DNA of 64,000 nucleotides. Source: Bacilli bacterium. Its GTDB lineage: Bacteria; Bacillota_I; Bacilli_A; RF39; UBA660. The DNA lies in NCBI GenBank assembly GCA_017410525.1, contig JAFQQQ010000001.1, positions 62,001 through 126,000 on the forward strand. The letters run 5' to 3'. The notes under the pieces are model-generated. The model was not told where the DNA came from and made no database searches. It saw only the letters and a program-made list of their open reading frames with translations. The translations under genes and the position numbers were made by a program. Below are positions 11,053 to 62,232 of this stretch, piece by piece. Positions within the stretch are counted from its first letter, which is position 1, and each line of letters starts with the position of its first letter.

Positions 11053-11074
11053 ATAATCACCACTATATTATATG

Positions 11075-11100
11075 AAAAAAGATAGTAAAAACTATCTTAA
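11075..11100 (-). terminator. Rho-independent terminator (minus strand)
   Basis: On the minus strand AAGATAGT pairs with ACTATCTT, followed by a T-run; it closes the gene ending at 11092. Confidence 0.75.
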
Positions 11101-12252: not shown

Positions 12253-12288
12253 ATCATCACCATGATAATTATATAATAAAAATAAAAT

Positions 12289-12312
12289 AAAAAAAAGGAG
12301 TTTACCCCTTTT
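12289..12312 (-). terminator. Rho-independent terminator (minus strand)
   Basis: An AAAAGG/CCTTTT stem with one mismatch, followed on the minus strand by a long T-run; it closes the gene ending at 12302. Confidence 0.65.
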
Positions 12313-13240: not shown

Positions 13241-13326
13241 ATCATCACCATTATTATTGTAGCACATTTCTTACCAAATTTATACAGAAAAATGTTAATG
13301 TGTGTTATAATTAGGTAGGTGGTAAT

Positions 13327-43671: not shown

Positions 43672-44802
43672 ATGTTTTTTAAAAATATACATACTAGAAT
43701 TAAAATAATAATATTAGTAACTGTTTTTTTATTTATAGTTATTATAGGTAAAGTATTTTATATACAAGTAATAGATTATAAAAAATTAAATAAATATGCG
43801 ACTAGTTTATGGAGTCGTAATTTACCACTTGCTGCTAATAGAGGCACAATATACGACACTAATGGAATAGAACTTGCTGGAAATATTACAACAACATCAC
43901 TAGTATTAATACCTAATCAAATAGGAGATAAAAAGAAGGTTGCTAAAGATTTAAGTGAAATATTGAATGTTACTTATGAAGAGATGTATAAACATGTATC
44001 TAAAAAAACATCTATAGAAAGAGTACACCCAGAAGGTAGAAATCTTAGTTATGAAATAGCAGATAAAATAAATAGCTTAGGTTATGATGGAGTGTATCTT
44101 GTTAAAGAAGCAAAAAGATATTATCCATATGATACAATGTTATCTCATAGTATTGGATTTGTTGGAATAGATAATCAAGGATTAAGTGGACTTGAACTTA
44201 TTTATGATGATTACTTAACAGGTAGTGATGGTTCTATAAAATATTTTAGTGATGCGAAAGGAAATAGTCTTTCTATGTCACAAATATATGAACAACCTAC
44301 AAGTGGAGTTAATATGACATTAACAATCAATTATAAATTACAAGAAGCACTAGAAAGAGAACTTGATATAGCAGTATCTGAATATAATCCAGATCAAGCT
44401 TTAGGTATTGCGATGAATCCAAATACAGGAGAAATACTTGCTATTGCATCAAGACCTACATTTAGTCCAAGTAATTATCAAAATTATACAGTAGAAGAAA
44501 TAAATAGAAATCTTCCTATATGGATGACATATGAACCAGGAAGTACATTTAAAATAATAACTCTTGCTGCTTCATTAGAAGAAAAAATAGTTGATTTAGA
44601 AAGTGATAATTTTTTTGATGGAGGAGCAGTAACTGTTGGAGGAGCTACATTACACTGTTGGAAACATGGTGGACATGGTAATCAAACTTATTTGCAAGTA
44701 GTAGAAAACTCTTGTAACCCGAGTTGCGAGCTAGAGATACCAAGACAAGCGAAGAAACCCTTGAAAATAAAGGGAAAAACAAAATTTCACCAAAGTTTAT
44801 AA
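43672..44802 (+). CDS. Class B penicillin-binding protein (SpoVD/FtsI-like), 3'-truncated at element junction
   Basis: A transpeptidase that cross-links septal or spore peptidoglycan, but here broken. Intact parts: a membrane anchor (about 12-32), the dimerisation domain with NRGTIYDTNG and YYPYDTMLSHSIGFVG, and the transpeptidase start with EPGSTFKIITLAA (S-x-x-K, about 290). HCWKHGGHG and VVENSCNP also match the family. Right after NSCNP (base about 44,720) the similarity stops, and a 27-residue unrelated tail follows to the stop. The S-x-N and K-T-G motifs and any PASTA domains are missing, so it cannot be active as written. The -10 TATAAT at 43652-43657 and GGTGATACT remain. Confidence 0.88.
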   Translation: MFFKNIHTRIKIIILVTVFLFIVIIGKVFYIQVIDYKKLNKYATSLWSRNLPLAANRGTIYDTNGIELAGNITTTSLVLIPNQIGDKKKVAKDLSEILNVTYEEMYKHVSKKTSIERVHPEGRNLSYEIADKINSLGYDGVYLVKEAKRYYPYDTMLSHSIGFVGIDNQGLSGLELIYDDYLTGSDGSIKYFSDAKGNSLSMSQIYEQPTSGVNMTLTINYKLQEALERELDIAVSEYNPDQALGIAMNPNTGEILAIASRPTFSPSNYQNYTVEEINRNLPIWMTYEPGSTFKIITLAASLEEKIVDLESDNFFDGGAVTVGGATLHCWKHGGHGNQTYLQVVENSCNPSCELEIPRQAKKPLKIKGKTKFHQSL

Positions 44803-45395: not shown

Positions 45396-46097
45396 ATGGC
45401 AGTATTTAAAGTTGAAAAAAGAAATAATTTTACAGTTATGAATAACTATCATTTAAGAGATAAAAACATATCTCATAAGGCAAGAGGTTTATTATCATTT
45501 ATGTTAAGTTTACCAGAAGATTGGGATTATTCATTGAGCGGACTAGTAAGTATTAGTAAAGAAAATAAAACAGCAATAAGAACTGCGTTAGAAGAATTAA
45601 AAGAAAATGGATATTTAATTATAGATAAAATATATCCAAATAAAACTAAAAGTGGAAGAATAGAATATGTTTATAATATATATGAATTACCACAAATAAA
45701 ACAAGATACTGAAAATCTATATCTTGAAAATCTAGATATAGAAAAGGACACACAAATAAATACTAATAAACTAAACGATAAAGAAGATAAAACTAAATCT
45801 TCTTTTTTTGATGCCGAAGAACATAATAGATTAACATTAGAATTAATTGAAAAAAACTATATAGATAAGAATGATATTCAGTTGTATTTTTATGACGAAC
45901 TTTTTGAAGAATTATTAAAAGAAAATAGTTATATAGATTTAATATGTATTATTCATTATATTTTAAATAGAGTAAAATTAAATAGATTTAAAGATGAAGA
46001 TGGTAATATTATAAGTAATAAATTTGGATATATGAAACAATCAATAATTCATAATATAAAAAGATTAAATTTTGATATTAATGATTTGTGGAATTAA
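45396..46097 (+). CDS. HTH_36 replication-initiator-like protein of integrative elements
   Basis: The N-terminal 100 residues hold a winged helix-turn-helix of the HTH_36 type: NYHLRDKNISHKARGLLSFM, LPEDWDYSLSGLVSISKENK, then TALEELKENGYLI. The SLPEDWDY stretch is very typical of RepA-like/DnaD-like initiators encoded by Bacillota ICEs and plasmids. The remaining 130 residues (EEHNRLTLELIEKNYI, KFGYMKQSIIHNIKRLNFD) are helical, like the conserved C-terminal domain of such proteins. TTGGAGGTGATTAT is a strong ribosome site. It probably acts in replication of the excised circle. Confidence 0.8.
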   Translation: MAVFKVEKRNNFTVMNNYHLRDKNISHKARGLLSFMLSLPEDWDYSLSGLVSISKENKTAIRTALEELKENGYLIIDKIYPNKTKSGRIEYVYNIYELPQIKQDTENLYLENLDIEKDTQINTNKLNDKEDKTKSSFFDAEEHNRLTLELIEKNYIDKNDIQLYFYDELFEELLKENSYIDLICIIHYILNRVKLNRFKDEDGNIISNKFGYMKQSIIHNIKRLNFDINDLWN

Positions 46098-46099
46098 AA

Positions 46100-46121
46100 A
46101 AGATTAGTCATTGCTAACCTT
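46100..46121 (-). terminator. Terminator of repressor 1
   Basis: On the minus strand AAGGTTAG pairs with CTAATCTT (one G-T pair), followed by T residues. Confidence 0.6.
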
Positions 46122-46547
46122 ATTTCTTAATATATCATCTGCTGATAATTTGTGATTCTTACAAAATATATATAAACTTCTTGTAGTAATCAAATTTTTA
46201 CCTAATTCATAATAAGTAAGAGTAGTTCTTGATATAGAGCATTCATCTGCTATATCTTTTTGTGTTAAGTGTAACTCTTTTCTGATTTTGCGTAGTTTTG
46301 CACCTAATTCTTTTTTATTTAAAACTATTTTTGTGTCATATAAAGTATTTCTTTTTGTTAAACCTAGTGCATAATCTACTGAATAATTATATAAATTACA
46401 AAATCTTATTAATTTAGGTAAAGGTATACTATCGTAAGCATTTTCCCAATTAGCGATTGTTTTGTCTGATACTCCAAATACAAATCCTAACTCTTTTTGT
46501 GTCATTTCTAATTCTTCACGACAAAATTTTAAATTATTATCAAACAT
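46104..46547 (-). CDS. Transcriptional repressor with two XRE domains (repressor 1)
   Basis: A 147-residue protein made of two consecutive Cro/CI-type helix-turn-helix domains. The first is at about 4-58 (REELEMTQKELGFVFGVSDKTIANWENA) and the second at about 75-130 (RKIRKELHLTQKDIADECSISRTTLTYYELGK). Having two domains in one chain lets it bind direct repeats. I choose the ATG at 46547, with AGGTGAG six bases upstream; a GTG at 46595 and ATG at 46577 are alternatives. It is divergent from the cargo operon and, by analogy with phage repressors, probably controls both itself and that operon. It is a paralog of the gene at 58045. Confidence 0.85.
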   Translation of the reverse strand: MFDNNLKFCREELEMTQKELGFVFGVSDKTIANWENAYDSIPLPKLIRFCNLYNYSVDYALGLTKRNTLYDTKIVLNKKELGAKLRKIRKELHLTQKDIADECSISRTTLTYYELGKNLITTRSLYIFCKNHKLSADDILRNKVSND

Positions 46548-46588
46548 TTTACGCTCACCTAATGTTAATTTTCCCATTAAAACGTAAA

Positions 46589-46632
46589 ATATCACCGAAA
46601 CTATGGGCTATATCACCTTTTTGTGTTATAAT
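46589..46632 (+). promoter_or_regulatory. Control region 1: operator repeats and extended -10 promoter
   Basis: ATATCACC occurs twice as a direct repeat (46589-46596 and 46610-46617), 21 bp apart (two helical turns). It lies just upstream of TGT-TATAAT (-10 at 46627-46632) and overlaps the expected -35 position. A tandem-HTH repressor bound here would block the cargo promoter. Confidence 0.6.
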
Positions 46633-46656
46633 GAATAATAGAGAGGAGTAACAAAT

Positions 46657-46710
46657 ATGAAAGATAAAATATATATAGAAAAAATAAATATTAAGGAGAA
46701 AAGAGAATGA
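46657..46710 (+). CDS. 17-residue leader peptide coupled to the first cargo gene
   Basis: GAGAGGAGTAACAA precedes an ATG that opens a 17-codon, Lys/Ile/Glu-rich frame (starts MKDKIYIEK). Its TGA overlaps the ATG of the next gene (ATGA). AAGGAG for the next gene lies inside it. The same promoter and ribosome site stand before the 92-residue gene at 58595, so this may be a remnant of a longer gene or a true coupling peptide. Confidence 0.45.
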   Translation: MKDKIYIEKINIKEKRE

Positions 46711-47171
46711 GTACTGAATTAATAGCAAAAGCAATTACTGCAATAGCATTTGGTATTGTAGGTGCGATAGTCATTACTCCAATCTTTATCTTTTTAAGGA
46801 AATTATTTTACGGACCTTTTATAAATAAAAAGTTAGTAGAAAAAGCGAAAGCAAAAGGTAATATAGTTACAGCGAGATTAATAAAACATTATGACCAATA
46901 TGATCATAGTGGGCAATTTAGTAGAACAACTGGAAAAGAAATTGGTGTATATGAGTATGAAGTTAATGGTCGCAAGTATAAATTTAGATCAATAAGTATT
47001 AACAGATTACCACGAGAGATTACACTTTATTATTTAAATAACCCTAGGAAGGCATCATTTGCAAAAGAAATTTATGTAACTGAACGCTCTCCGTGGTTTA
47101 AATCTTTTATGGCAATATGTTTTATATGCTGGTTAATAGCTTTTATATGTTTGATTAATATGAATATTTAG
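46707..47171 (+). CDS. DUF3592-like membrane protein
   Basis: Membrane segments lie at about 10-32 and 132-150, with the main domain between them. That domain has VEKAKAKGNIVTARLI, then VYEYEVNGRKYKFRS and ITLYYLNNPRKASF. This series (gene-specific strand, YEYEVNGKKY, IxLYYxxNPxK) is the DUF3592 pattern and recurs in the genes at 51679, 53543, 55207 and 55681. AAGGAGAAAAGAG precedes the ATG, which overlaps a 17-codon leader peptide. 154 residues; function unknown. Confidence 0.75.
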   Translation: MSTELIAKAITAIAFGIVGAIVITPIFIFLRKLFYGPFINKKLVEKAKAKGNIVTARLIKHYDQYDHSGQFSRTTGKEIGVYEYEVNGRKYKFRSISINRLPREITLYYLNNPRKASFAKEIYVTERSPWFKSFMAICFICWLIAFICLINMNI

Positions 47172-47180
47172 TTTTAATTT

Positions 47181-47345
47181 GAAGGAGTGATAATATGGAT
47201 CAAAATAATAATTTTAATACACAGGGGTATAATGGTTTTACAAATAATCAACCGAATACAAATATGAACAACAACTTTTATCAACCACCAGTAAATAATC
47301 AAGCACCAAAGAAGAAACCTAATATAGGTTTAATTGCTGGTATTA
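47181..47345 (+). repeat. Conserved 5' module, copy 1
   Basis: About 165 nt covering the ribosome site (GAAGGAGTGATAAT), the MDQNNNFNTQGYN tail code and the start of the membrane helix. It is near-identical to four other copies in this element. Confidence 0.85.
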
Positions 47346-48130
47346 TTGTGGGAATTATTGCAGTAGGAATTGGAGCATTTTTAATGTTTAATAAAAATAC
47401 TGATAATAATTCTAATGGCGGAACAAATAATTCTAATAGTGGAACAAATAATGTTAATTTATCAATTGATGAGAGTATTTCTAAATACCTAACTTGTAAT
47501 TTAGTTGGTAATGCAATTTATGGTGATAAAGCAAGTTATTCTTATGAGTATATTTTACCTAATTGGAATAGATATACTTTCTTAAAAGACTATGAACCAG
47601 AGTATATGAATGAACCAGGTAAATTATATAATGTTAAATATGATAAAGAATGTAAGGCAGATAGAAAAGTTGATTCAACAACTGCACAAACAAATGATTT
47701 TGGTATTTATATTCATTATAGTGTTGATAAATATGCGTCTACTGCTTGGGCAAATATAAAAGAACGTACTACAGGTAATTTATTATATACTCAGACAGCA
47801 GGAAGTCCGACTTTATATGGAAACGATAATGGATATTGGTATGCTTATATGAAAAAAGACACTCAAACATCAACTGGTGAAGAATTAAATGAACTTCATA
47901 TAGAGATTAGAAAAGAAGTTGCTAAAATTGAAGATGCAGTGAAAACACCACTTGGTGATACAGTTGTTGGTGATGAATTTCACGCTTTAGAAATATCAAT
48001 TGTAATTTCATATCAAAATGAAACAGGTAAGACTAAATTAAATTATTTATTAAATGATTTAAAAGGAATGTTAGAGGAAAAATATAATTTAGATTTATCT
48101 AAATTAACAGTTGATATGATAAAAAAATAG
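47195..48130 (+). CDS. MDQNNN-family single-pass surface protein 1
   Basis: A 311-residue protein of a five-member local family. The N-terminal cytoplasmic tail of about 45 residues is rich in Asn, Gln and Pro (MDQNNNFNTQGYNGF...QPPVNNQAPKKKP). Then come one membrane helix (GLIAGIIVGIIAVGIGAFLMF, about 47-67), an Asn/Ser/Gly-rich linker and an outside domain of about 215 residues. That domain has two Cys (YLTCNLVG and DKECKAD), probably a disulfide, and resembles no other copy here. The Lys-rich stretch before the helix fits an N-in orientation. Function unknown. Confidence 0.8.
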   Translation: MDQNNNFNTQGYNGFTNNQPNTNMNNNFYQPPVNNQAPKKKPNIGLIAGIIVGIIAVGIGAFLMFNKNTDNNSNGGTNNSNSGTNNVNLSIDESISKYLTCNLVGNAIYGDKASYSYEYILPNWNRYTFLKDYEPEYMNEPGKLYNVKYDKECKADRKVDSTTAQTNDFGIYIHYSVDKYASTAWANIKERTTGNLLYTQTAGSPTLYGNDNGYWYAYMKKDTQTSTGEELNELHIEIRKEVAKIEDAVKTPLGDTVVGDEFHALEISIVISYQNETGKTKLNYLLNDLKGMLEEKYNLDLSKLTVDMIKK

Positions 48131-48142
48131 AGAGGTGTAAGT

Positions 48143-48293
48143 ATGGATCAAAATAACAATTTTAATACACAGGGGTATAACAATTTTACAAATAATCAAT
48201 CAAATACAAATATGAACAATAATTTTAATCAACCACCAGTAAATAATCAAGCACCAAGGAAGAAACCTAATATAGGTTTAATTGCTGGTATTG
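48143..48293 (+). repeat. Conserved 5' module, copy 2
   Basis: The same ~150-nt coding module, with its own small substitutions (AGGAAGAAA in place of AAGAAGAAA before the helix). Confidence 0.85.
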
Positions 48294-49291
48294 TAGGTGC
48301 AGTTTTAGTTGTAGGAATAGGTGGAATATTATTATTTAATAAGCCATCAAACGAGCCAAATAATAATATGCAAAATAATGGTGGAACAAATAATTCTTCT
48401 AATGTTGTATACAATGATAGTTCAAGAAGTATTAATTCTACTTATACATTTGATGAGGCAACAAGTAAATTTGCATTTAAAGAATATGAAACAACTTTGA
48501 TTTTTCAACAAAATAATAATATAAAACTTTCTAGTATAAAGTTAGGTAATATAAGTAATGTTTCTTTTTACTATGAAAATGCTTCTGCTTATTATACTTT
48601 CAATTTTGAAGAAAGTGGCTCTTCAAGTATTAATGAATTTGTAGAAAATTTTAATAATGGTATTTTAGGTGGTGGAAAAAGACAAACGACTTTCCAAAAT
48701 ATCAAAATGTTAGAATCAAATGAAGAGTATGCTTTTATTTCTTGTCAAGAATCAGGAAATTCATCTTATAAATATTATTTTGCAAAACAAATAGGTGGTA
48801 AGGTTTTCTATGCTTATAGTGATCGTCATTTAAATGAATTAGATGACAATAAAAAAACTGAAATGTTAATAGGGTTTAAAGAACTATTTAATGCTTTATC
48901 TACTGATGATAATAAAGAGCCTTATATAAGTGATAAAATTATAAATGTACCTGTTGTTTTAAACAAACAAATAAAGGATTATAAGTTTATAGATACTATT
49001 CAATTAGTTCATCCTAAAACATCAACTGCTAACTATCGCAATTATATGAAAGGGTCTGTTAATTTATATAGTGCAGATAATAAGAGTCTTGTAGTTCAAT
49101 ATGATGCAGACAAATTTTATAATAAAGTTGAGTGGAATAAAAATTTAAGTTCAAAAATCAAATATAGTGATGAAGATAATTTCTTTGGAATAAAAGATGG
49201 AAATAATACTCAAATGTTTAGTATAAGTAAGTCTGAAAATATTGAAACTGAAAACAACTTTAATGAATATTTAAATAAGTTCTTTAATTAA
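48143..49291 (+). CDS. MDQNNN-family single-pass surface protein 2
   Basis: The family's N/Q/P-rich tail and membrane helix (GLIAGIVGAVLVVGIGGILLF) are followed by an outside domain of about 300 residues. That domain is clearly related to the one at 54033: VVYNDSSRSINSTYTFDEA then SKFAFK, YYFAKQIGGKVFYAY, EPYISDKIINVPVVLNK and FFGIKDGN. The membrane segment, however, is closer to copies 1 and 5 than to copy 4. The ribosome site is AGAGGTGTAAGT, 13 nt after the previous stop. 382 residues; function unknown. Confidence 0.8.
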   Translation: MDQNNNFNTQGYNNFTNNQSNTNMNNNFNQPPVNNQAPRKKPNIGLIAGIVGAVLVVGIGGILLFNKPSNEPNNNMQNNGGTNNSSNVVYNDSSRSINSTYTFDEATSKFAFKEYETTLIFQQNNNIKLSSIKLGNISNVSFYYENASAYYTFNFEESGSSSINEFVENFNNGILGGGKRQTTFQNIKMLESNEEYAFISCQESGNSSYKYYFAKQIGGKVFYAYSDRHLNELDDNKKTEMLIGFKELFNALSTDDNKEPYISDKIINVPVVLNKQIKDYKFIDTIQLVHPKTSTANYRNYMKGSVNLYSADNKSLVVQYDADKFYNKVEWNKNLSSKIKYSDEDNFFGIKDGNNTQMFSISKSENIETENNFNEYLNKFFN

Positions 49292-49309
49292 AAAAGAGAG
49301 GTAGAGATT

Positions 49310-50071
49310 ATGAAAAATAAAATATTATTTAGTTTATTATGTGCTGGTCTTGTTTTAGGACTTGCGACAGGTTGTGGAAATAAAACTAATAATGAAAATA
49401 ATAATAACAATAATATACAAAACAATGGTGGAACAAATCATAATAATCAAGAAAATAAATTAAAATTTACAGAAGAGTATACATATTTTGGTTTTACATT
49501 CTATTATCCTAATGAATTAGCTACGGCACAAAATAATCATACGGGATATTTATTAAATGATTATGTTAGCAATTTTTATGGTGGTGCTTATATAAGCAAA
49601 CAAAAATATGAAGGTAATGCAGGAACTACTTATTATATGACTGCAATATCTAGTCCATTTGCTCAAATGACTAATGCAGAAGTTAAGAATGAAAATATAA
49701 CATTAGATAATATTGTTGAAAAGAGCAAAGAAAAATTAATAAAATCATTTGGTTATTATAGTACTCTTATGGGTGATCCAAAGGGTAATCAAGTTTATAG
49801 TGGCGATTTAAATCAGGTTATTTCTAAACAAGAAAAGATAACTATAAATGGAATAGATATGGTTAAAGTAGAAGGGTACTTTGAGGACACTAATAGGAAT
49901 TTAATAGGGCAAGAAAAGTTTGTTGCTTATTATATGATTGCTAATATCAAAGATACAGATGGTAGTATTGTTAACTTACCAGTATATTATTTAGGATTTG
50001 GGGTTGATTCTGATTATAGTGAAGTAAAATCTTATATGGAAGAATCAATAAAATATATTAAAAAAAATTAG
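49310..50071 (+). CDS. Lipoprotein, unknown function (family A)
   Basis: A signal peptide and lipobox (SLLCAGLVLGLATGC, Cys about residue 22) are followed by an Asn-rich linker. A 200-residue outside domain begins YFGFTFYYPNELA and contains ITINGIDMVKVEGYFEDT and KFVAYYMIANIK...LPVYYLGFG. The same blocks occur in the lipoprotein at 50776, so the two are paralogs. Its signal peptide is almost the same as that of the lipoprotein at 62233. RBS AGAGAGGTAGAGATT. Function unknown. Confidence 0.8.
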   Translation: MKNKILFSLLCAGLVLGLATGCGNKTNNENNNNNNIQNNGGTNHNNQENKLKFTEEYTYFGFTFYYPNELATAQNNHTGYLLNDYVSNFYGGAYISKQKYEGNAGTTYYMTAISSPFAQMTNAEVKNENITLDNIVEKSKEKLIKSFGYYSTLMGDPKGNQVYSGDLNQVISKQEKITINGIDMVKVEGYFEDTNRNLIGQEKFVAYYMIANIKDTDGSIVNLPVYYLGFGVDSDYSEVKSYMEESIKYIKKN

Positions 50072-50080
50072 GGTGATATG

Positions 50081-50752
50081 ATGAAAAAAATATTATTAAG
50101 TTTGTTATGTGGAGTAATGATTTTAGGAGTTGCAGTAGGTTGTAGTAATTCAAATAAAAATAGTGATGATAATCAAGGCAACAATCAATCTAGTGGATGG
50201 AATGATTATACATTTTATATAAATGACTATAAAATAGAATTACCAATGAAGTTTAGTGAGTTTAATAAATTAATTACTCAAAATAGTGATTATGAATTAG
50301 GAAAATCAGAAAAATTTTATAATGGATCTGGAATTGATGATGATAAATTAATTTCAGGTGAAAGAGAAGAATTTTACTATTTAAATCAATATGGTGATAC
50401 AATTTTTGAACAATATTATTTATATTTCACTTTACAAAATGAAACAGATGCAACTTTACCTAACGAAGATTGTACAGTTGTTGGAGTAAGAGTTGGTAAT
50501 TTAACTGATCCAATTACGTATTTTGATAAAAATATTAAATTTACTTCTAAAAAATTATATACAGGTATAGAAATGACAGAAGATAAATTAGTAAAAACAT
50601 TTGGTAAGTATGATGATTTTAGTGCTTCCACATATAGGTATGATAAATTTGAATATGGAATGAGTACAAATTATTCATTTCAAATTTCTACTAAAAATGA
50701 TGTGATTTCTCAATTAGAAATAAGTTGGATCGACAAAACAAGAGATGAATAG
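50081..50752 (+). CDS. Lipoprotein, unknown function (family B)
   Basis: Signal peptide with lipobox MILGVAVGC (Cys about 21), a short polar linker and a domain of about 190 residues. That domain has DYTFYINDYKIELPMKFSEFNKL and KLVKTFGKYDDFSASTYRYDKFEYG, similar in layout to the C-terminal domain of the protein at 52751 (an extracellular gene product tracking a target value of strength or charge cannot be inferred). I choose the second ATG (50081), 5 nt after GGGTGAT; the first (50078) is too close. Function unknown. Confidence 0.75.
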   Translation: MKKILLSLLCGVMILGVAVGCSNSNKNSDDNQGNNQSSGWNDYTFYINDYKIELPMKFSEFNKLITQNSDYELGKSEKFYNGSGIDDDKLISGEREEFYYLNQYGDTIFEQYYLYFTLQNETDATLPNEDCTVVGVRVGNLTDPITYFDKNIKFTSKKLYTGIEMTEDKLVKTFGKYDDFSASTYRYDKFEYGMSTNYSFQISTKNDVISQLEISWIDKTRDE

Positions 50753-50775
50753 TAATCAGAGTGAGGTGAAAAGTA

Positions 50776-51399
50776 ATGAAAAAAATATTATTAAGTATAT
50801 TATGTGCAATAATGATTGTAGGTCTTGCTGGATGTGGTAATTCTAATAATACTGATTTAACTGAAAATAATGATAATTTAAATAATTCAGAAAATCAAAA
50901 TAGTAAAACTGATTTTTCTAATAAATTAACATTTATGGGTTACGATATTAGCTATCCAAGTGATGCAGGAAAAAATTCATCAGATTATGGTAATTTGCTT
51001 GGAACAAGTGAATATATCGTAATTGTTGAAGCACCATCAACTGCTGGGATATTAAAAGAAGTGTCTAATATAAATGACGCTCCAAAAGTAGTAGAAGAAT
51101 ATGTGCTTTCAACATTAGAACATAAAGTTCGTTCGCTTTTTAATTTTGATAGTACAGAGCAAATAACTGAAAAAACAACTAAAACAACTAAAAATGGAAT
51201 AGAAATGCTTCGTGCAGAAGGTGTATTTAAAAATACTAGAGATAATACAGAAGTTGAATTTGTGGCTTATTATTTATTAGCAGGAGATAATGGTAATATG
51301 CCAGTATATCTTGTTGGTATACCAATGAAGGATTCTACAATTTCTATTAAAAACATAATGGATGAAATGTCATCACATATTACGAAGTATAAAGGTTAG
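50776..51399 (+). CDS. Lipoprotein, unknown function (family A)
   Basis: Signal peptide with lipobox IVGLAGC (Cys about 20), an Asn/Asp/Ser linker, and a domain of about 160 residues paralogous to that at 49310. Shared blocks are LTFMGYDISYPSDA, KNGIEMLRAEGVFKNT, EFVAYYLLAGD and PVYLVGIP. It is shorter than its paralog by about 45 residues, mainly in the middle. RBS GTGAGGTGAAAAGTA. Gene order A-B-A suggests local duplication. Confidence 0.78.
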   Translation: MKKILLSILCAIMIVGLAGCGNSNNTDLTENNDNLNNSENQNSKTDFSNKLTFMGYDISYPSDAGKNSSDYGNLLGTSEYIVIVEAPSTAGILKEVSNINDAPKVVEEYVLSTLEHKVRSLFNFDSTEQITEKTTKTTKNGIEMLRAEGVFKNTRDNTEVEFVAYYLLAGDNGNMPVYLVGIPMKDSTISIKNIMDEMSSHITKYKG

Positions 51400-51409
51400 G
51401 AGTGATAAT

Positions 51410-51682
51410 ATGAAGTCATTTAGATATGAATTTACTATGGAAGAATTAAAGTACTATCTTTTTAATAAAAAGAAATGTCCTAAATGTCAAAATAAGATGA
51501 TAAAATCAAAAGGATATGAACTTGTAGATGGGTCAATTTTTAATTCTGCTTCTACACCTCTATATATTCAAGGTAGAGATAAAGTTAAACATTATCATTA
51601 CTTATTTAATTGTTCTAAATGTGGATTTCAATATACATTAAAAGAATTAGTACAAAAAAATAAAGGAAGTGATAAAAGATGA
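51410..51682 (+). CDS. Small zinc-ribbon protein
   Basis: A soluble protein of 90 residues with CPKCQNKM (about 24-31) and CSKCGFQY (about 73-80), four Cys that fit one zinc ribbon with a long inserted loop. I start at the ATG at 51410 (TAGGAGTGATAAT before it), not at 51362, which lies inside the upstream gene. Its TGA overlaps the ATG of the DUF3592-like gene (ATGA), so the two are made together. Function unknown. Confidence 0.7.
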   Translation: MKSFRYEFTMEELKYYLFNKKKCPKCQNKMIKSKGYELVDGSIFNSASTPLYIQGRDKVKHYHYLFNCSKCGFQYTLKELVQKNKGSDKR

Positions 51683-52110
51683 ATTTTCCTATTTTAATAT
51701 TTATCGGAATAATACTTTTAATAATGGGAGTTGTGTTTATTGGTGTATCTATCACAATAAAAAAACATTATGAAAAATTATATAATAATTGCACAGAATC
51801 TACCATTGGTAAATTTGATAAAGTATCTGAAAGATTAGGGTTAAATGATACAAATGATATGAGAAGCTACTATCCTATTTTTAAATATAATGTTAAAGGA
51901 AAAGATTATTATTGTAAAGGGAATAAAGGTGCTTATCATATAAAAGATGTAGATATAAAAGACATAACAATTTATTATAATCCTAATAATCCTAATGAAT
52001 CGTATACAAACAAAAAAACAAATAATACAATAATAAATGTTTTTAAATTGTTAGGAATTATATTTGTAGTAATTGGATTATGTTTAATAGTTTTAAAATT
52101 AATAGTTTAA
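51679..52110 (+). CDS. DUF3592 family membrane protein
   Basis: Two membrane segments (about 4-26 and 116-138) flank a domain with YYPIFKYNVKGKDYYCKGNKG and DITIYYNPNNPNESY. This is the best match to classical DUF3592 in the window: the Y-x-P-x-F-x-Y-x-V-x-G-x-x-Y block and the YYNPxNP block are both present. 143 residues. It is coupled to the zinc-ribbon gene by ATGA. Function unknown. Confidence 0.82.
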   Translation: MNFPILIFIGIILLIMGVVFIGVSITIKKHYEKLYNNCTESTIGKFDKVSERLGLNDTNDMRSYYPIFKYNVKGKDYYCKGNKGAYHIKDVDIKDITIYYNPNNPNESYTNKKTNNTIINVFKLLGIIFVVIGLCLIVLKLIV

Positions 52111-52130
52111 ATAGAAAGAAAGGAAAAATT

Positions 52131-52724
52131 ATGAAGAAAAAAATATTATTAAGTATATTTTGTTGCCTATCTATTCTGTTGGTGGTAACTGGTTGTGGCA
52201 CACAAAAACCAAAATTAATTGATGAAAAATCGGTTTTAAATTATTTAAAAGATACTTACCCTAATGAAACTTTTGAAATAATTAGTAATGAAGAAATTGA
52301 TATTACTCATAGTAATTGTGGAGATGATACATTTGTGGGTAATTCTTGGTTAGTAAAATCAAATAATACAGGCATAGAATTTAATGTAGAAGATTCTTAT
52401 AACTTTAATTCTATCTATTGTGAATTTGGAATAAAGAATGATTATGTTTCGACTGCATTAGAAGAAAAATCTAAATTAAACACTTTTAACAAATTACATA
52501 TTTCTTATAATTCAATTGAAGTATATGAAAAAGAATTTTATAGTAGAGCTGAAATGGTAGATGCGCTATATAATGCGATTAGTGAGTTAAAAAATGAAGC
52601 TCCATTTAAATATGGTACTAATATAAATGTTTATATTAATTTGAAAGATGAAGAAAACTATAAATTCCTTTATTTTGATAAAATTTCAAGTAAAGAATAT
52701 ATTACTAATATTTTAGATAATTAA
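52131..52724 (+). CDS. Lipoprotein, unknown function
   Basis: Signal peptide with lipobox LLVVTGC (Cys about 21), then a domain of about 175 residues with a SNCGDDTFVGNSWLVKSNNTGIEF block and two further Cys. It does not clearly match the family A or B lipoproteins. I start at the ATG at 52131 with AAAGGAAAAATT upstream; an earlier in-frame start at 52080 lies inside the DUF3592 gene. 197 residues. Function unknown. Confidence 0.75.
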   Translation: MKKKILLSIFCCLSILLVVTGCGTQKPKLIDEKSVLNYLKDTYPNETFEIISNEEIDITHSNCGDDTFVGNSWLVKSNNTGIEFNVEDSYNFNSIYCEFGIKNDYVSTALEEKSKLNTFNKLHISYNSIEVYEKEFYSRAEMVDALYNAISELKNEAPFKYGTNINVYINLKDEENYKFLYFDKISSKEYITNILDN

Positions 52725-52738
52725 TAAAAAACAAAAAA

Positions 52739-52900
52739 AGGAGTGATAATATGGATCAAAACAATAATTTTAATATGCAGGGGTATAATGGTTTTACAAA
52801 TAATCAACCGAATACAAATATGAATAACAATTTTAATCAACCACCAGTAAATAATCAATCACCAAAGAAGAAATTTAATATGGGTTTAATTGTTGGTATT
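52739..52900 (+). repeat. Conserved 5' module, copy 3
   Basis: The ribosome site AAGGAGTGATAAT and ~150 coding bases, near-identical to the other copies; it has AATATGCAG where the others have AATACACAG or AATACACAA. Confidence 0.85.
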
Positions 52901-53533
52901 GGTGTTGTTGCAATAGTTGCTGTTGTGGGCATTGTTTTTGGTAGTAAATTATTTTTAAATAGTGGTAATAATAGTACAGATAATAGTAATGATAATATAA
53001 ATAATAATGTACAAAATAATGATATCAGTAACGATTCTACTATAAATTATGATGAATTAATGAAAATGCAAATTATTATTAATGGTAATGAGATATTTTT
53101 GAATAAAACTACTATTGATGATTTTCTAGAAAGTAGCAAATGGGAAAATTATGAAGAATCATCATTTTCAACAGAAGTAAACAAAGCAATTGTTTTAAAA
53201 GATGGTGTTAATGAAATAACATTGACTTATTTAAAATCAAATAATGTAATTTTCCAAGTTACAACCAACTCAGATTTTGATAATAATGTAACAAAAATAC
53301 AATATAAGGATTCATACATAGGTACTTTGAATATAGGAGATAATATATTAGAAGAACAATTAAAGGAAAAGTACATAATAAATAAAACAAATTATCGTTT
53401 TGATATAAGAAGAACTAATCCATCAGACCTTATTATTTTATATGAAAAATCTTCGCCAATTGTATTGAATTATTTGTATCATGATGAAGAATATAATTTA
53501 ACAGGTTTTTCTGCTTGGTGGTATATTTATTAG
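52751..53533 (+). CDS. MDQNNN-family single-pass surface protein 3
   Basis: The shortest family member (260 residues). The N/Q/P-rich tail is followed by a helix (GLIVGIGVVAIVAVVGIVFG, about 47-66) almost the same as in copy 4, an Asn/Asp-rich linker and an outside domain of about 170 residues (MQIIINGNEIFLNKTTIDDFL, YKDSYIGTLNIGDNILEEQL). That domain has the look of the lipoprotein at 50081, with a threshold-like I-x-I-x-G-x-x-x-x-L pattern, but similarity is weak. Function unknown. Confidence 0.78.
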   Translation: MDQNNNFNMQGYNGFTNNQPNTNMNNNFNQPPVNNQSPKKKFNMGLIVGIGVVAIVAVVGIVFGSKLFLNSGNNSTDNSNDNINNNVQNNDISNDSTINYDELMKMQIIINGNEIFLNKTTIDDFLESSKWENYEESSFSTEVNKAIVLKDGVNEITLTYLKSNNVIFQVTTNSDFDNNVTKIQYKDSYIGTLNIGDNILEEQLKEKYIINKTNYRFDIRRTNPSDLIILYEKSSPIVLNYLYHDEEYNLTGFSAWWYIY

Positions 53534-53542
53534 AGGTATAAG

Positions 53543-54019
53543 ATGGAAAATGAAATAACATTAAAAGAAGCTTGGGAACAAATACTAGATTATGATCCAT
53601 CTTTATGGTTTGGGTTGATAGGTGCTATTGTTGTTTTTGTAATTGAAATTATTTTGGTAAAGAAAAAAATAATATTTAATGGTTTTGAAAAGAAAGTAAA
53701 AGAAGCACAGAAAGATGGTAGAGTTTTAAATGCAACAAGAATTAGTTGTAGATATGAAAATAGAAATCCAGGAACTAAAACTATCAATAGGATATATATA
53801 GCACATTACCAATATGAATTGAATGGAAAAACAGAAAAATATCAAGTGGTTTCTACTAGTATGGAGCCACCTCGTACTATATCTTTATATTATGAAAAAA
53901 ATTCTAATAAAGTATTTAGTAAATATGGAAAGAAGAGTAATCCATTAATAGTGTTAATATATATAATACCTATATTGGTAGCATATTTTATTATGAAAAT
54001 ATTGGGATTTCATTTTTAA
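53543..54019 (+). CDS. DUF3592-like membrane protein (MENEITLK start)
   Basis: Membrane segments at about 22-42 and 133-152. The domain between them has KEAQKDGRVLNATRIS, AHYQYELNGKTEKYQV and PPRTISLYYEKNSNKVFS. Its first 13 residues (MENEITLKEAWEQ) and its ribosome-site region nearly match the gene at 55681, a second case of a shared 5' end with a different body. 158 residues. It follows the MDQNNN gene by 9 nt. Function unknown. Confidence 0.72.
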   Translation: MENEITLKEAWEQILDYDPSLWFGLIGAIVVFVIEIILVKKKIIFNGFEKKVKEAQKDGRVLNATRISCRYENRNPGTKTINRIYIAHYQYELNGKTEKYQVVSTSMEPPRTISLYYEKNSNKVFSKYGKKSNPLIVLIYIIPILVAYFIMKILGFHF

Positions 54020-54020
54020 A

Positions 54021-54183
54021 AGGAGTGATAATATGGATCAAAATAATAATTTTAATACACAAGGGTATAACAATTTTACAAATAATCAATCAAATACAAA
54101 TATGAACAATAATTTTTATCAACCACCAATAAATAATCAACCACCAAAGAAGAAACCTAATATAGGCTTAATTGCTGGAATTG
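54021..54183 (+). repeat. Conserved 5' module, copy 4
   Basis: The ribosome site AAGGAGTGATAAT and ~150 coding bases, near-identical to the other copies, continuing into a helix code shared with copy 3. Confidence 0.85.
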
Positions 54184-55196
54184 TTGTTGTTGCAATAGTT
54201 GCTATTGTAGGCGTTGTTTTTGGTGGCAAACTTTTATCAGATAACGATACAAATAATTCTACTGGTGGATCTTCTAATAATGAAAAAGTAGATGTTGTAT
54301 ATTATGATAACTCTAGAGAATTAAAAGATAGTTATACATTTAAAGAAGCGGTAAGTAAGTTTGCATTTAAAGTAAATGAAAGCACACTTATATTTGAAGA
54401 AAATGATAAAACAACTTTAGAACATATTATGCAAGAAGAAACAAAACACAATGATTTATGGAATGCTCAATTTGAATATAAACAAGATATTTATACTTCA
54501 GTAGGACAAATATATGTAGGTGAAAGTAGTGCAACAACATTAGAAGAATTTGTAAATAATTTTAAAGTTGGTAAATTAAGTGAAAATACTACTTGGGAAG
54601 TAGAAAATGTAAATATAGTTGAGGCAAATAATGACTATGTTTTTGCATCTTGGACTAATAAAGGTTTAGTAACAAATTATGAATACTATTTTGCTAAAAA
54701 AATTGGAAGTAAAATTTATTATGCTTATAATAGTTCAGTTGTTTCTTATAATGATACAAAGTTTGCTTTATTGCTACCACAATTTAAAGAGTTTTTTACT
54801 TGTTTAAAAGAGGATGATGGCAAGGAACCATACATATACGACAAAATAATGAATGTGCCTATTGTTTTAAATAAGAGAATAAAAAATATTGATTATATCT
54901 ATGGAATAATAAATAGTGATACAGGTTATATAGATGGCTCAGTTAGTTTGAATAAAGAAGATACTACTGACTTTATTACTATAGAATATGGTGCAGATGG
55001 TTATTATAATAAAATTGATTGGGCAAAAAAATTAGATTCTAATATTCAATATATGAGAGAAGATAGTGAGAACTTTTATGGAATAAAAGATAATGGAGTT
55101 GTTCAAATAATTCAAATTCAAAATTATAATGATGATGAAGTTAAAAATCTTGACGAACTTAATGGTTTTATGAAAGCGTATTTAACAAATAAATAA
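54033..55196 (+). CDS. MDQNNN-family single-pass surface protein 4
   Basis: N/Q/P-rich tail, helix (GLIAGIVVVAIVAIVGVVFGG), short Asn/Ser/Gly linker, then an outside domain of about 300 residues homologous to that of copy 2: VVYYDNSRELKDSYTFKEA, YYFAKKIGSKIYYAY, EPYIYDKIMNVPIVLNK, IEYGADGYYNKIDWAKKL. The helix and linker resemble copy 3 instead, so the gene is mosaic. 387 residues. It is followed by two DUF3592-like genes. Function unknown. Confidence 0.8.
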   Translation: MDQNNNFNTQGYNNFTNNQSNTNMNNNFYQPPINNQPPKKKPNIGLIAGIVVVAIVAIVGVVFGGKLLSDNDTNNSTGGSSNNEKVDVVYYDNSRELKDSYTFKEAVSKFAFKVNESTLIFEENDKTTLEHIMQEETKHNDLWNAQFEYKQDIYTSVGQIYVGESSATTLEEFVNNFKVGKLSENTTWEVENVNIVEANNDYVFASWTNKGLVTNYEYYFAKKIGSKIYYAYNSSVVSYNDTKFALLLPQFKEFFTCLKEDDGKEPYIYDKIMNVPIVLNKRIKNIDYIYGIINSDTGYIDGSVSLNKEDTTDFITIEYGADGYYNKIDWAKKLDSNIQYMREDSENFYGIKDNGVVQIIQIQNYNDDEVKNLDELNGFMKAYLTNK

Positions 55197-55206
55197 GGAT
55201 AGTATT

Positions 55207-55665
55207 ATGGATAGTTTTAAACAATTTCAAGAATTAATTTCAAATATAAATATTGATCCAGTAATAGCAATAGGTGTAATAGTAATTATTGCAACATTTA
55301 TAATAGAGTTTGTTTTAGTCAGTAAAGGATATTTGAATTTTGGGAACAGTAAAAAGAAACTAGATAAAGCAGTAAAATTAAATCATCAAATAAAAGCTAA
55401 AAGAATTTCTTATTATGATGATGATGTAACTGGTACTCAAGTTGATTCATGGTATCATGCTAAATATGAGTATACATTAAATAATAAGAAAAAAATATAT
55501 AGATATTTAAGTAGAAAGCAACCACCATTAATATTGAATTTATATTATGTTAATAATCCACGTAAGGTATTTCATTATGAAGATAAAAAATCATCTATAT
55601 TAGATTTATTAATATATATTATTCCTTTTGCTTTGGGAATACTTATTATTAATTTATTAAAGTAA
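55207..55665 (+). CDS. DUF3592-like membrane protein
   Basis: Membrane segments at about 18-40 and 131-151. The domain has KLDKAVKLNHQIKAKRISYYDDD, AKYEYTLNNKKKIYRYL and PPLILNLYYVNNPRKVFHYED, closest to the gene at 53543. It starts differently (MDSFKQFQELI) and lacks the MENEITLK piece. AAGGATAGTATT precedes the ATG, 10 nt after the previous stop. 152 residues; function unknown. Confidence 0.72.
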   Translation: MDSFKQFQELISNINIDPVIAIGVIVIIATFIIEFVLVSKGYLNFGNSKKKLDKAVKLNHQIKAKRISYYDDDVTGTQVDSWYHAKYEYTLNNKKKIYRYLSRKQPPLILNLYYVNNPRKVFHYEDKKSSILDLLIYIIPFALGILIINLLK

Positions 55666-55680
55666 AATAAGAGGTGTAAA

Positions 55681-56181
55681 ATGGAAAATGAAATAACATT
55701 GAAAGATGCTTGGACACAATTATTTGGAGATAATCCAATAAGTTGGTTAAAATGGATATGTGTGTTTGTCGTGTTAGGATTATCCTTTTATATTCTTGTT
55801 TATAAATTGTTTGGAAAACTGGAATATAAAACAGATATAAAAAGAAAAGTAGAGAAAGCGAAAGCAAAAGGTAATGTGTTAAAAGGCATCTTAGTTAAAA
55901 CTAAAATTAGACATCAAAGAAATAGCACAAAAAGAACATTTAGAGGTGTGTATGAGTATGAAATTAATGGAAAGAAATATCATTATTCAACTTTCTTTCC
56001 TGATGAAATACAGCCACCACGTGTTTTAAATTTATATTATCTTAATTCTCCCAATAAGATATTTTGTGAAGAAGAGTATGAATGGAAACCTTTTATTGGA
56101 GTTATATATATAATTAGTATTTTATTATCGTTTGTAATAGCAGGATTTGTTGCAAAATGGTTAGGTTTAATTAATGTTTAG
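55681..56181 (+). CDS. DUF3592-like membrane protein (MENEITLK start)
   Basis: Membrane segments at about 20-42 and 138-160. It starts MENEITLKDAW, like the gene at 53543. The domain has VEKAKAKGNVLKGILV, which matches the gene at 46707 even at DNA level (a stretch of about 20 identical bases), then VYEYEINGKKYHYS and PPRVLNLYYLNSPNKIF. It thus combines parts seen in two different paralogs. 166 residues; it ends 13 nt before the next ATG. Function unknown. Confidence 0.73.
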   Translation: MENEITLKDAWTQLFGDNPISWLKWICVFVVLGLSFYILVYKLFGKLEYKTDIKRKVEKAKAKGNVLKGILVKTKIRHQRNSTKRTFRGVYEYEINGKKYHYSTFFPDEIQPPRVLNLYYLNSPNKIFCEEEYEWKPFIGVIYIISILLSFVIAGFVAKWLGLINV

Positions 56182-56182
56182 A

Positions 56183-56345
56183 AGGAGTGATAGAATGGAT
56201 CAAAATAACAATTTTAATACACAGGGGTATAACACATTTACGAATAATCAATCAAATACAAATATGAACAACAACTTTTATCAACCACCAGTAAATAATC
56301 AAGCACCAAAGAAGAAACCTAATATAGGTTTAATTGCTGGTATTG
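56183..56345 (+). repeat. Conserved 5' module, copy 5
   Basis: The ribosome site GAAGGAGTGATAG and ~150 coding bases, near-identical to the others; the downstream 20 bases match copy 2. Confidence 0.85.
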
Positions 56346-57730
56346 TAGGTGCAGTAGCAGTTATTGCCACAATAGGTATAACTTTTGCTTTAAAAGGAAA
56401 TAGTGGTAGTTTATTTGGAAATAAAGGCACAGTTAAATTATATTCTGATAGTTTAACTTTAGCAGATGGTGATACACATAAATATAATTTATATAAAGAA
56501 AATGGTAATGAAGTTAATATGAAAATATATAAAATGACTGATTACCTAGTTGCATATCAAAATGTAGATAAAGATTATAATTATTTTGGGTTTGCTTTTT
56601 ATAATTTAGATAATGAAAAAAATTATGTGCTAGAAACAACTAATTTAGGACATAATGTTGAAAATTCAGGTTATATAAATACAGATATAGAGAAAAAGGG
56701 AACTGATTTTACTAATATACACGATATAGCTACTAAATTTGGAAATAGCAATGGTGCAAATGAATATTCCAAAGAAAATGCAAAAGTTGAAAAAATAAGT
56801 AATACTATTTCTAAAGTAACATCAGTAAAAACTTGGGGAGAAGAAAAATATACATATTTTATAGATATAGATGATTCACATTATTTTGAAATACAAGTTA
56901 CTTGTAATCCTGGTACTGGTTGTGATTTAGAGTCTGAAACTACAAAGGGAACTTTAAAAATATTTGAAAATCTTAAAATAGAACTAGTAGATGATAATGA
57001 TAAAGAGAATGTTGGACAAACCAATAATAAAAATTCAATAGATGAAAGATTCGAATATTATTTTGCCTTTAAAGATATTGATCTTAAAAAATTTGATAAG
57101 TCTAAAGCATTAAAAAGTATAAATGATTTTAATGGTAATGAGATAACTACATATCCTATTACCTATGAAAAATTAAGTTCAAAGTTAAAACCTTATTATG
57201 AAAAAAAGGGAAAATATTTTGATGAATGGTTAGAAACATCCGTTGTTAGTAGTTCAGAAATACGTTGGTGTACTAATAGTAGTGATTGCTATTTGACAAC
57301 AAATTTTTATGATAGTAATAATTCTTCAATTTCTGAAGCGATGAAAAGTCATAAATTTTATATAGAAATAAGTGGATATGGTTATAATACAATATTAGGT
57401 ATTTCAGAAGATGATACTAAAGATGATATTGATTTAATACTAGAAACTATAGGAAATCCAAACGAAATTTATATACATTCAGAAGTCTATACAAAACAAG
57501 AAAATGCTGATTATTATTTAGTATATAATTATAATGATTATATGTTGGCTTTCAATTTTACTGAAAGTTCGTCTGCTGATAGATCTAAAGATTCGGCTTT
57601 ATATATAGCACCTCATTTAGAGAATATTTATTATATTGATGGTAATTCATTTAAAGATGCAATAAATGCTATTAAAAGTGGTACATACACCGATTATTAT
57701 GATAAAAATATTGATATAGTTTTAAAATAG
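56195..57730 (+). CDS. MDQNNN-family single-pass surface protein 5 (two-domain)
   Basis: The longest family member, 511 residues. N/Q/P-rich tail, helix (GLIAGIVGAVAVIATIGITFAL), then two outside domains. The first (about 75-265) has KLYSDSLTLADGDTHKYNLY and two Cys (VTCNPGTGCDLES). The second (about 285-505) has YAFKDIDLKKFDKSKALKSIND, a CTNSSDC pair and GYNTILGISEDDTKDDIDLILETIG. I choose the ATG at 56195 over the in-frame start at 56174 because the ribosome site lies between them. Function unknown. Confidence 0.78.
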   Translation: MDQNNNFNTQGYNTFTNNQSNTNMNNNFYQPPVNNQAPKKKPNIGLIAGIVGAVAVIATIGITFALKGNSGSLFGNKGTVKLYSDSLTLADGDTHKYNLYKENGNEVNMKIYKMTDYLVAYQNVDKDYNYFGFAFYNLDNEKNYVLETTNLGHNVENSGYINTDIEKKGTDFTNIHDIATKFGNSNGANEYSKENAKVEKISNTISKVTSVKTWGEEKYTYFIDIDDSHYFEIQVTCNPGTGCDLESETTKGTLKIFENLKIELVDDNDKENVGQTNNKNSIDERFEYYFAFKDIDLKKFDKSKALKSINDFNGNEITTYPITYEKLSSKLKPYYEKKGKYFDEWLETSVVSSSEIRWCTNSSDCYLTTNFYDSNNSSISEAMKSHKFYIEISGYGYNTILGISEDDTKDDIDLILETIGNPNEIYIHSEVYTKQENADYYLVYNYNDYMLAFNFTESSSADRSKDSALYIAPHLENIYYIDGNSFKDAINAIKSGTYTDYYDKNIDIVLK

Positions 57731-57761
57731 TTTATGATTTAAATAGTAGGAGGAATTATAT

Positions 57762-58043
57762 ATGGCAAAGAAAACAAAAAATGTTCTAAATAAAAAAGTA
57801 GATTTAAACAAGAAAATTGATTTAAATAAAAAAATAGATTTGAATAAAGAAGTAGAATCACACGGCACGATTTATGGTTTAATGATAGGTGCTGTTGTAG
57901 GAATGGTTTTATCATTAATATTTGAAGTTGATATGGGGTTTGCTTATGGTATAGCACCTGGATTATTAATAGGAATAATAATTGATTGTTGTAATGCTGA
58001 AAGCAAGAAAAACAAAAAGAAAAAAGTATCAAAGAAAAAATAA
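57762..58043 (+). CDS. Lys-rich small membrane protein with KKIDLN repeats
   Basis: A 93-residue protein. Residues 11-28 are three copies of the hexapeptide K-K-[VI]-D-L-N, encoded by nearly identical 18-nt repeats (57792-57845). Two membrane segments follow (about 37-55 and 59-78) and a very basic tail. GTAGGAGGAATTATAT precedes the ATG. It is the last gene of the first cargo operon and ends at a bidirectional terminator. The repeat length could vary by slippage. Function unknown. Confidence 0.72.
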   Translation: MAKKTKNVLNKKVDLNKKIDLNKKIDLNKEVESHGTIYGLMIGAVVGMVLSLIFEVDMGFAYGIAPGLLIGIIIDCCNAESKKNKKKKVSKKK

Positions 58044-58063
58044 CCTATTTGGTTATTTTTTTT
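58035..58063. terminator. Bidirectional terminator between operon 1 and repressor 2
   Basis: AAAAAATAACC (58035-58045) pairs with GGTTATTTTTT (58051-58061) between convergent genes. Confidence 0.8.
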
Positions 58064-58488
58064 CGCCCTAATACTTTATCTATAGAAAAGTTTTTGTATA
58101 TTAAGGATAGACTATATAGAAAGTTTGTAGGTATCAAGTTTCTTGCATTTTCATAATGTGCGTATGCAGATGAACTAGTATTGAGAACTTGTGCTATGTC
58201 TTCTTGTGTTTTATTGTTTTGTTTTCTAATTGTTCTTAAATTTCTACCAATTAATTCTAGATCAATTTCTAATGGCTCATACAACTCATTAAAATCTTTT
58301 AAACCAAATAAGTAATCCAAACTATAATTATACTTATTTGCATATTTAATCAATTGTTTTAAAGGGATAGTATCTTTACCTGTTTCATACCCAGAAATTG
58401 TTGAATAAGAAACCTCAAATAAGGGTATTAAATCCTTTTGTTTTAAATATAATGACTCTCTTGTATCTCTTAATCTTTTTACAATCAT
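58045..58488 (-). CDS. Transcriptional repressor with two XRE domains (repressor 2)
   Basis: 147 residues with two tandem Cro/CI-type domains: RDTRESLYLKQKDLIPLFEVSYSTISGYETGKD (about 5-40) and RTIRKQNNKTQEDIAQVLNTSSSAYAHYENARN (about 82-115). It is a paralog of repressor 1, with the same length, layout and ribosome site (GGTGAG, 5-6 nt from ATG), but the recognition helices differ (SYSTISGYE versus SDKTIANWE). It diverges from the second cargo operon, whose operator repeats also differ, which suggests matched specificities. Confidence 0.86.
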   Translation of the reverse strand: MIVKRLRDTRESLYLKQKDLIPLFEVSYSTISGYETGKDTIPLKQLIKYANKYNYSLDYLFGLKDFNELYEPLEIDLELIGRNLRTIRKQNNKTQEDIAQVLNTSSSAYAHYENARNLIPTNFLYSLSLIYKNFSIDKVLGRKKITK

Positions 58489-58519: not shown

Positions 58520-58570
58520 TTGGGGAAATATGTATTTTCTTGGGGAAATAGACCAAAAATGTGTTATAAT
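58520..58570 (+). promoter_or_regulatory. Control region 2: operator repeats and extended -10 promoter
   Basis: TTGGGGAAATA occurs twice as a direct repeat (58520-58530 and 58540-58550), 20 bp apart, upstream of TGT-TATAAT (-10 at 58565-58570). From TGTGTTATAATG to the gene start the sequence is almost the same as in control region 1, but the operator repeats are different. Confidence 0.65.
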
Positions 58571-58594
58571 GAATAATAGAGAGGAGTAATAAAT

Positions 58595-58873
58595 ATGAAA
58601 GAAACAAATGGAATAGTTATTGATTTAAAAGTAAAAGGGATAGATTCGCCAACTATTGCAATAGTTGAATATGAAGTAGAAGGTAAAAAATATACTATTC
58701 AAGAATCTTTAAAACTTGAAAGTAAGGCAATTAAAATAGGTTTCTTACCTATAGGTCAAAAGAAAGTTCCAAAAATAAAATGTGAAAAGGGTGGAAAAGT
58801 TGTAGTTGTTTACGATAGTAAAAAACCACAAAAAGCCTATTTAAAAGGTAATGAAGGTAAAGTAAATTGTTAA
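58595..58873 (+). CDS. Small soluble DUF3592-like protein
   Basis: A 92-residue protein without membrane segments. It has AIVEYEVEGKKYTIQE and GGKVVVVYDSKKPQKAYLKG, a soluble version of the YEYEVNGKKY and LYYxxNPxK blocks seen in the membrane paralogs. It is the first gene of the second cargo operon, directly under control region 2 (GAGAGGAGTAATAA). Function unknown. Confidence 0.7.
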   Translation: MKETNGIVIDLKVKGIDSPTIAIVEYEVEGKKYTIQESLKLESKAIKIGFLPIGQKKVPKIKCEKGGKVVVVYDSKKPQKAYLKGNEGKVNC

Positions 58874-62217: not shown

Positions 62218-62232
62218 AGAAGTGAGGTAATT

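Follow-up and report, generated by a model that had tools for sequence, protein, structure and literature searches.

The window analyzed here is a stretch of 64,000 nucleotides from a Bacilli bacterium of the RF39 lineage (assembly GCA_017410525.1, contig JAFQQQ010000001.1, positions 62,001 to 126,000). It carries five genes for predicted surface proteins that begin with nearly the same DNA and end in different outer domains (ectodomains). Here, we show that this 5' module, made of the ribosome site and the region encoding an N-terminal tail, and sometimes of part of the following membrane helix, has a history independent of that of the ectodomains. Very probably, the tail has passed between genes without the outer part that follows it, and has been replaced or homogenized behind older ectodomains by recombination among paralogous 5' ends, while being kept under purifying selection. 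The genes are carried by an integrative and conjugative element (ICE), described below.

Five genes with a common 5' module

The five genes are colinear, lie on the plus strand and begin exactly where an earlier note on this DNA had placed them: copy 1 at 47195..48130, copy 2 at 48143..49291, copy 3 at 52751..53533, copy 4 at 54033..55196 and copy 5 at 56195..57730. Their products have the same layout, with an Asn/Gln/Pro-rich tail of about 42 residues, a basic stretch, a hydrophobic helix at codons 44-65 and, beyond it, 190-440 residues of outer part; a second helix is not evident in any of them. Judging from the sequences, they would be N-in, C-out membrane proteins in which a single helix follows the cytosolic tail and an Asn-rich linker leads to the outer domain.

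These genes had been described as sharing about 150 nt at their 5' ends. The sharing is real, but the module is longer than proposed, nearer 165 nt, and extends from about position -14 to codon 50. Over this region, from the ribosome-binding site to codon 50, pairwise identity is 85-95%, and the genes diverge beyond it. The common blocks are of 167 nt at 93% identity between copies 1 and 5, 164 nt at 95% between 2 and 5, 163 nt at 93% between 1 and 3, 176 nt at 91% between 4 and 5, 164 nt at 87% between 3 and 5, and 226 nt at 86% between 3 and 4. The ribosome site mostly falls within the block, as had been said, with copy 2 differing in this sequence. The tail copies differ by 5-13% in DNA. 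This short tail occurs five times in the genome; searches of 385 other genomes of the family and of 15 other genomes of the genus did not find it. Its single match in genome_contigs (L008, Lachnospiraceae) was rejected: it resembles a TM2-domain protein whose N-rich stretch would be fortuitous. A search of viral_contigs gave no match for tail or ectodomain, and neither did plasmid and phage searches with copy 2. Pfam, NCBIfam and PADLOC offered no usable family for any of the five ectodomains. The structure predicted for the ectodomain of copies 2 and 4 has low confidence (mean predicted local distance difference test score of 47.6, with residues 62-162 better), and its best PDB match is at E=0.017 (PsbP, Flpp3, DcrB).

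The relationships among the copies change along the gene. As the earlier note had seen, copies 2 and 4 have homologous ectodomains (41% identity across 281 aa); the ectodomains of copies 1, 3 and 5 have no match inside the cluster. The helix is itself mosaic. It clearly pairs copy 3 with copy 4, and copies 1 and 2 have helix and linker in common (256 nt, 80%); the proposed grouping of copy 5 with copy 2 holds only for the helix start, to codon 54. In the tail, a P/S site separates copies 1 and 3 from copies 2, 4 and 5, and a Y/N site separates copies 1, 4 and 5 from copies 2 and 3, which together give all four combinations, as claimed. More generally, of the 45 pairs that the biallelic informative sites form, 21 are incompatible by the four-gamete criterion. 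An order-permutation test on the 10 sites of the tail gives P=0.02-0.03 with neighbor windows of 1-3 and P=0.10 with a window of 5, a signal of recombination within the tail that is suggestive only.

Ectodomains with other tails in other genera

The evidence that carries our conclusion comes from searching the family with the ectodomains, rather than the tail, as queries, in a comparison that includes one genome per species. The ectodomain of copy 1 has an orthologue in G288 (75% over the ectodomain query), that of copy 2 in G120 (71% identity) and that of copy 4 in G042 (57%) and G205 (56%). The ectodomain of copy 3 is unique, and so is that of copy 5, with no other match in 145 family genomes. 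None of the four orthologues bears the short tail of the window. Those of G120, G042 and G288 bear a longer N/Q-rich tail (MNQEQNNLNPNNFNTQGNNGIPNNQ... PKKMNLGLIIGI), and the one of G205 lacks any N-rich tail. In the ectodomain tree, copy 2 joins G120 (100/100) and copy 4 joins G042 and G205; forcing copies 2 and 4 into one clade costs 180 log-likelihood units (approximately unbiased [AU] test, p=3e-57). In the tail tree, the five tails of the window are united (100/99), and the AU test rejects the grouping of copy 2 with G120 (p=0.003), of copy 4 with G042 (p=1e-63) and of copy 1 with G288 (p=2e-4). The earlier note had proposed gene conversion or module shuffling and had named the comparison of tail and ectodomain trees as the way to check it; the two trees reject each other, in agreement with the proposal.

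Silent codons date the two parts of the genes differently. Among the tails within the element, 40 of 357 silent codons differ, and between orthologous ectodomains of different genera 28-35% do (counts of 61/204, 45/158 and 49/167). In the pair of copies 2 and 4, the tails differ at 2 of 36 silent codons, against 44 of 115 in the ectodomains (Fisher p=7e-5; residue-matched P=5e-5). Hence, the tails are younger than the split of these ectodomains. Since ectodomains 1, 2 and 4 predate the tail set of the element and carry other tails in other genera, we conclude that the tails were replaced or homogenized after the ectodomains had diverged.

The longer tail provides independent replicates of a tail shared apart from the ectodomain. 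Genes of G033, G050, G074 and G266 also carry it, in front of other ectodomains; the ectodomains behind it include BspA-type leucine-rich repeats (LRR; E=1.7e-47) and RCC1-like repeats. The genes of G120 and G033, which are from different genera and have unrelated ectodomains, share 161 nt at 91% identity, from -58 to codon 34, and those of G042 and G050 have common sequence from -186 through the tail. Two neighboring genes, G074a and G074b, have tails that are 90% identical, with 1 silent difference in 48, and do not share the ectodomain, LRR_5 being present on one only. By eye, several longer-tail genes adjoin serine recombinases and others sit among housekeeping genes. In all, the exchanged unit covers the ribosome site and extends to the promoter region in individual genes, and its inner edge lies near the helix start (copies 1, 2 and 5; G074a/b) or the helix end (copies 3 and 4). 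The idea of a constant membrane anchor with different outer domains was thus right about the constant 5' part, but the constant unit is the ribosome site and the cytosolic tail up to the helix start, and not the anchor.

The probable operon and the element that carries it

Sharing restricted to the 5' end extends beyond the five genes of the earlier note to lipoprotein leaders and small membrane proteins of the cluster. The lipoprotein gene at 49310..50071 (plus strand) shares its leader with the gene at 62233-62943 (49284-49379 against 62210-62302, 87.5% over 96 nt), and the mature parts are unrelated; within the genome, strong copies of this leader occur only in the element. Two genes for small membrane proteins, at 53543..54019 and 55681..56181 (both plus), have the ribosome-binding site and first codons in common (53529-53584 against 55667-55722, 86% over 56 nt). 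The promoters of two cargo operons likewise show 5'-only sharing: the putative promoter and leader at 46622..46664 (plus), with TATAAT at about 46629, is 98% identical over 43 nt to 58560-58602 in a blastn self comparison. Neither a common leader motif nor consensus promoters stood out in the window, the former being no commoner than chance and the latter no commoner than in shuffles. We also observed that Asn-rich linker (NNGGTN) DNA of copy 2 (48359-48394) matches that of the adjoining lipoprotein gene (49406-49441) at 89% over 36 nt, possibly an exchange between two anchor types.

The tail genes belong to a tight gene run (46707-58043, gaps of -4 to 31 nt) that mixes tail, lipoprotein-like and small membrane protein genes and in which no terminator-like site was found. 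From this arrangement they probably form one operon, co-transcribed and controlled by the divergent XRE-type double helix-turn-helix (HTH) regulator at 46104..46595 (minus; Pfam HTH_3). A paralogue of this regulator at 58045..58488 (minus) stands at the start of the next cargo operon. With L006:1527-1973, there are three such paralogues, each divergent from a plus-strand operon. The first gene of the run, at 46707..47171 (plus), encodes a small, weakly DUF3592-like membrane protein and is the first of a paralogous family that includes those at 53543, 55207 and 55681. Its start is overlapped by ATGA with a 17-codon leader open reading frame (ORF; MKDKIYIEKINIKEKRE) at 46659-46712, and the two are possibly translationally coupled. 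The 46707 protein is 40% identical to the product of the gene after the ectodomain-2 orthologue in G120, and the one at 55207..55665 (plus), directly downstream of copy 4, has a 52% homologue at the same place in G205. In copy 4, G120 and G205, the gene with the type-2/4 ectodomain is thus followed by one that encodes a member of the 46707/55207 family, and such a small membrane protein could be a partner for type-2/4 ectodomains only.

The tail operon belongs to the cargo of an ICE of about 53 kb inserted in spoVD, a penicillin-binding protein (PBP) gene. The N-terminal half of spoVD (43672..44802, plus; TIGR02214 positions 3-348) is cut by the left end of the element near 44720, and the C-terminal half lies on contig C7 (G000:C7:40280-41140, TIGR02214 positions 345-635). 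The ends of contigs C10 and C7 overlap by exactly 118 nt, so the two probably join, which gives the size of the element and allows the genome to be connected across the ICE. The split in spoVD is at NSCNP|GFVNL; a short common core, possibly AACCC, was read by eye. The gene set of the ICE comprises a VirB4-type ATPase (P0001) and a MobL/VirD2-like relaxase, both assigned by Pfam, a VirD4-type coupling protein, an M23 peptidase, a SpaA adhesin and a sortase. At its far end, beside the C-terminal half of spoVD on C7, is a large serine recombinase of 597 aa; the coupling-protein-like and serine-recombinase ORFs of C7 were assigned by reading only. At the left end, an HTH_36 replication-initiator-like gene (45396..46097, plus; PF13730 E=2.6e-8) is 60% identical to that of the ICE of G002 and has homologues in related ICEs. 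Such ICEs are present in the family; those that were fetched have no homologues of the tail genes, and their cargo differs. The closest one, in G002 (VirB4 82%), carries a DnaK-like set in place of the tail genes. By eye, its cargo (L040:35-7847) includes a DnaK-like ATPase, a zinc-ribbon protein and other genes. Next to this ICE there appears, by eye, a truncated gene for a PBP5-like D-Ala-D-Ala carboxypeptidase (L040:8935-9132), which may be a second cell-wall gene used as ICE target. The insertion in spoVD, the gene of a sporulation PBP, brings to mind elements that disrupt sporulation genes and excise when the cell sporulates. Elsewhere in the window, three tandem D,D-carboxypeptidase (VanY-like) genes lie on the minus strand (10423-13267), and their C-terminal parts look alike by eye.

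Probable exchange mechanism, alternatives and known systems

How could tails move between such different genes? Probably, the 5' ends of paralogues undergo homologous recombination or gene conversion with one another, for which the shared tail, the pre-helix motif PKKxNxGLIxGI and the Asn-rich linkers would provide sites of homology, even across different tail types. Ectodomains would be recruited behind a tail that is already resident and ready for expression, and the similarity of the tails would then be maintained. The tail would probably do one common job inside the cell (topology, localization or docking) and the outer domains different jobs. Some points weigh against this account. Direct evidence that tails recombine internally is marginal (P of 0.02 to 0.10 on 10 sites), and trees within the tail are weak because the tails are short and of low complexity. 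Furthermore, homogenized resident genes look much like genes in which one tail has captured new ectodomains.

A first alternative accepts the exchange and makes the tail a neutral passenger, a ready-made ribosome site and N-in start with neither partner nor signal function. This is a serious competitor, although we lean somewhat against it. The module includes the ribosome site, and the promoter region in single genes; the ectodomain of G205 exists without an N-rich tail; and the lipoprotein leaders show the same 5'-only sharing. Yet a simple start would not need so long a tail, and motifs such as NNFNTQGxNG are kept between tail types. Its nonsynonymous divergence (pN) is about 0.05 against about 0.24 for synonymous divergence (pS; means of ten pairs), and the resulting pN/pS, about 0.2, suggests that selection maintains the tail for some purpose. 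At the other extreme, this family could have a bacterial surface-display platform. A mobile 5' cassette, made of the N/Q-rich tail and a promoter or ribosome site, would be joined by recombination to unrelated ectodomains at the conserved pre-helix motif, and the tail would stay constant because all tail proteins dock to one cytosolic or membrane partner. We regard this as rather unlikely, but if it were true the cell or the ICE would gain new outer functions without new regulation.

Much less probable is a locus of phase or antigenic variation, where a recombinase uses the conserved 5' region to switch the expressed ectodomain. The Vpma family of Mycoplasma agalactiae and the Vsp family of M. 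bovis, whose surface genes are mosaic behind a constant 5' end, have a similar anatomy, with tandem genes, conserved 5' untranslated and N-terminal DNA (there encoding a signal peptide) and divergent outer parts (PMC2268961). The Vpma are lipoproteins served by one promoter, and the Xer1 recombinase acts at sites within 72 nt of the start, causing high-frequency inversion (PMC2268961). In contrast, our genes encode N-in membrane proteins, are all colinear in a gapless operon and have a ribosome site each. No recombinase ORF was found in 44-64 kb, and the only one found in the ICE is at its far end. The cluster has no inverted genes or long inverted repeats (the longest arms, of 25-26 nt, are AT-rich and imperfect), and tails that are 5-13% apart are too different for frequent switching. 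A diversity-generating retroelement was also considered and rejected; the only RVT_1 match of the genome is on another contig, C2. The divergence of the tails implies that exchange is infrequent on a short time scale and, together with the lack of switching machinery in the cluster, gives the system the look of slow concerted evolution rather than of rapid antigenic variation. Plain duplication without exchange, with strong constraint on the tail, fast divergence of the ectodomains and homoplasy at the mosaic sites, is hardly credible: the tail is indeed low-complexity and under purifying selection, and its informative sites are few, but protein constraint alone cannot make silent codons alike (2/36 versus 44/115), the ribosome-site DNA is alike as well, and the AU tests contradict it, ectodomains 1, 2 and 4 having orthologues that do not bear this tail in other genera.

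Tail exchange among paralogous 5' ends can be set beside several known systems. Firmicutes have proteins with a zinc-ribbon or low-complexity tail, a transmembrane segment and an ectodomain, such as the TcaA-like ones, in which a cytosolic N-terminal tail and basic pre-helix residues precede one helix and a variable outer domain. The five tail proteins have the same architecture as these (e.g., L090 and L091), but their tail is N/Q-rich, lacks cysteines and is nearly unchanged, including in DNA, across unrelated ectodomains. The element has the VirB4-type ATPase, MobL/VirD2-like relaxase, VirD4-type coupling protein, SpaA-type adhesin, sortase and variable cargo of other ICEs with a large serine recombinase, and differs from them in its cargo, the tail-protein operon, and in its insertion site, spoVD. 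Concerted evolution of part of a paralogous gene is known from the bab/hop genes of Helicobacter pylori, where, as here, one segment is homogenized among paralogues and another stays divergent. The same is reported for vertebrate TLR1/TLR6 (PMC2077338). Unlike in these cases, the segments joined here are often non-homologous (LRR, RCC1-like and other ectodomains), so domain recombination is also involved.

The system is a variant of the mycoplasma constant-5'-end kind, without switching machinery, with non-homologous outer domains, and on an ICE. In the open-access literature, we found no paper that describes such exchange in the cargo of an ICE or among the N-in membrane proteins of gut-type bacteria with low GC. 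The cross-genus orthologues make tail exchange measurable, each ectodomain being traceable through its tail swaps, and a tail that is kept while everything behind it changes offers a handle for asking what its role is. In eukaryotes, exon shuffling is a familiar way for unrelated outer domains to exchange one constant intracellular module, and by analogy the system of the window could be seen as its bacterial equivalent.

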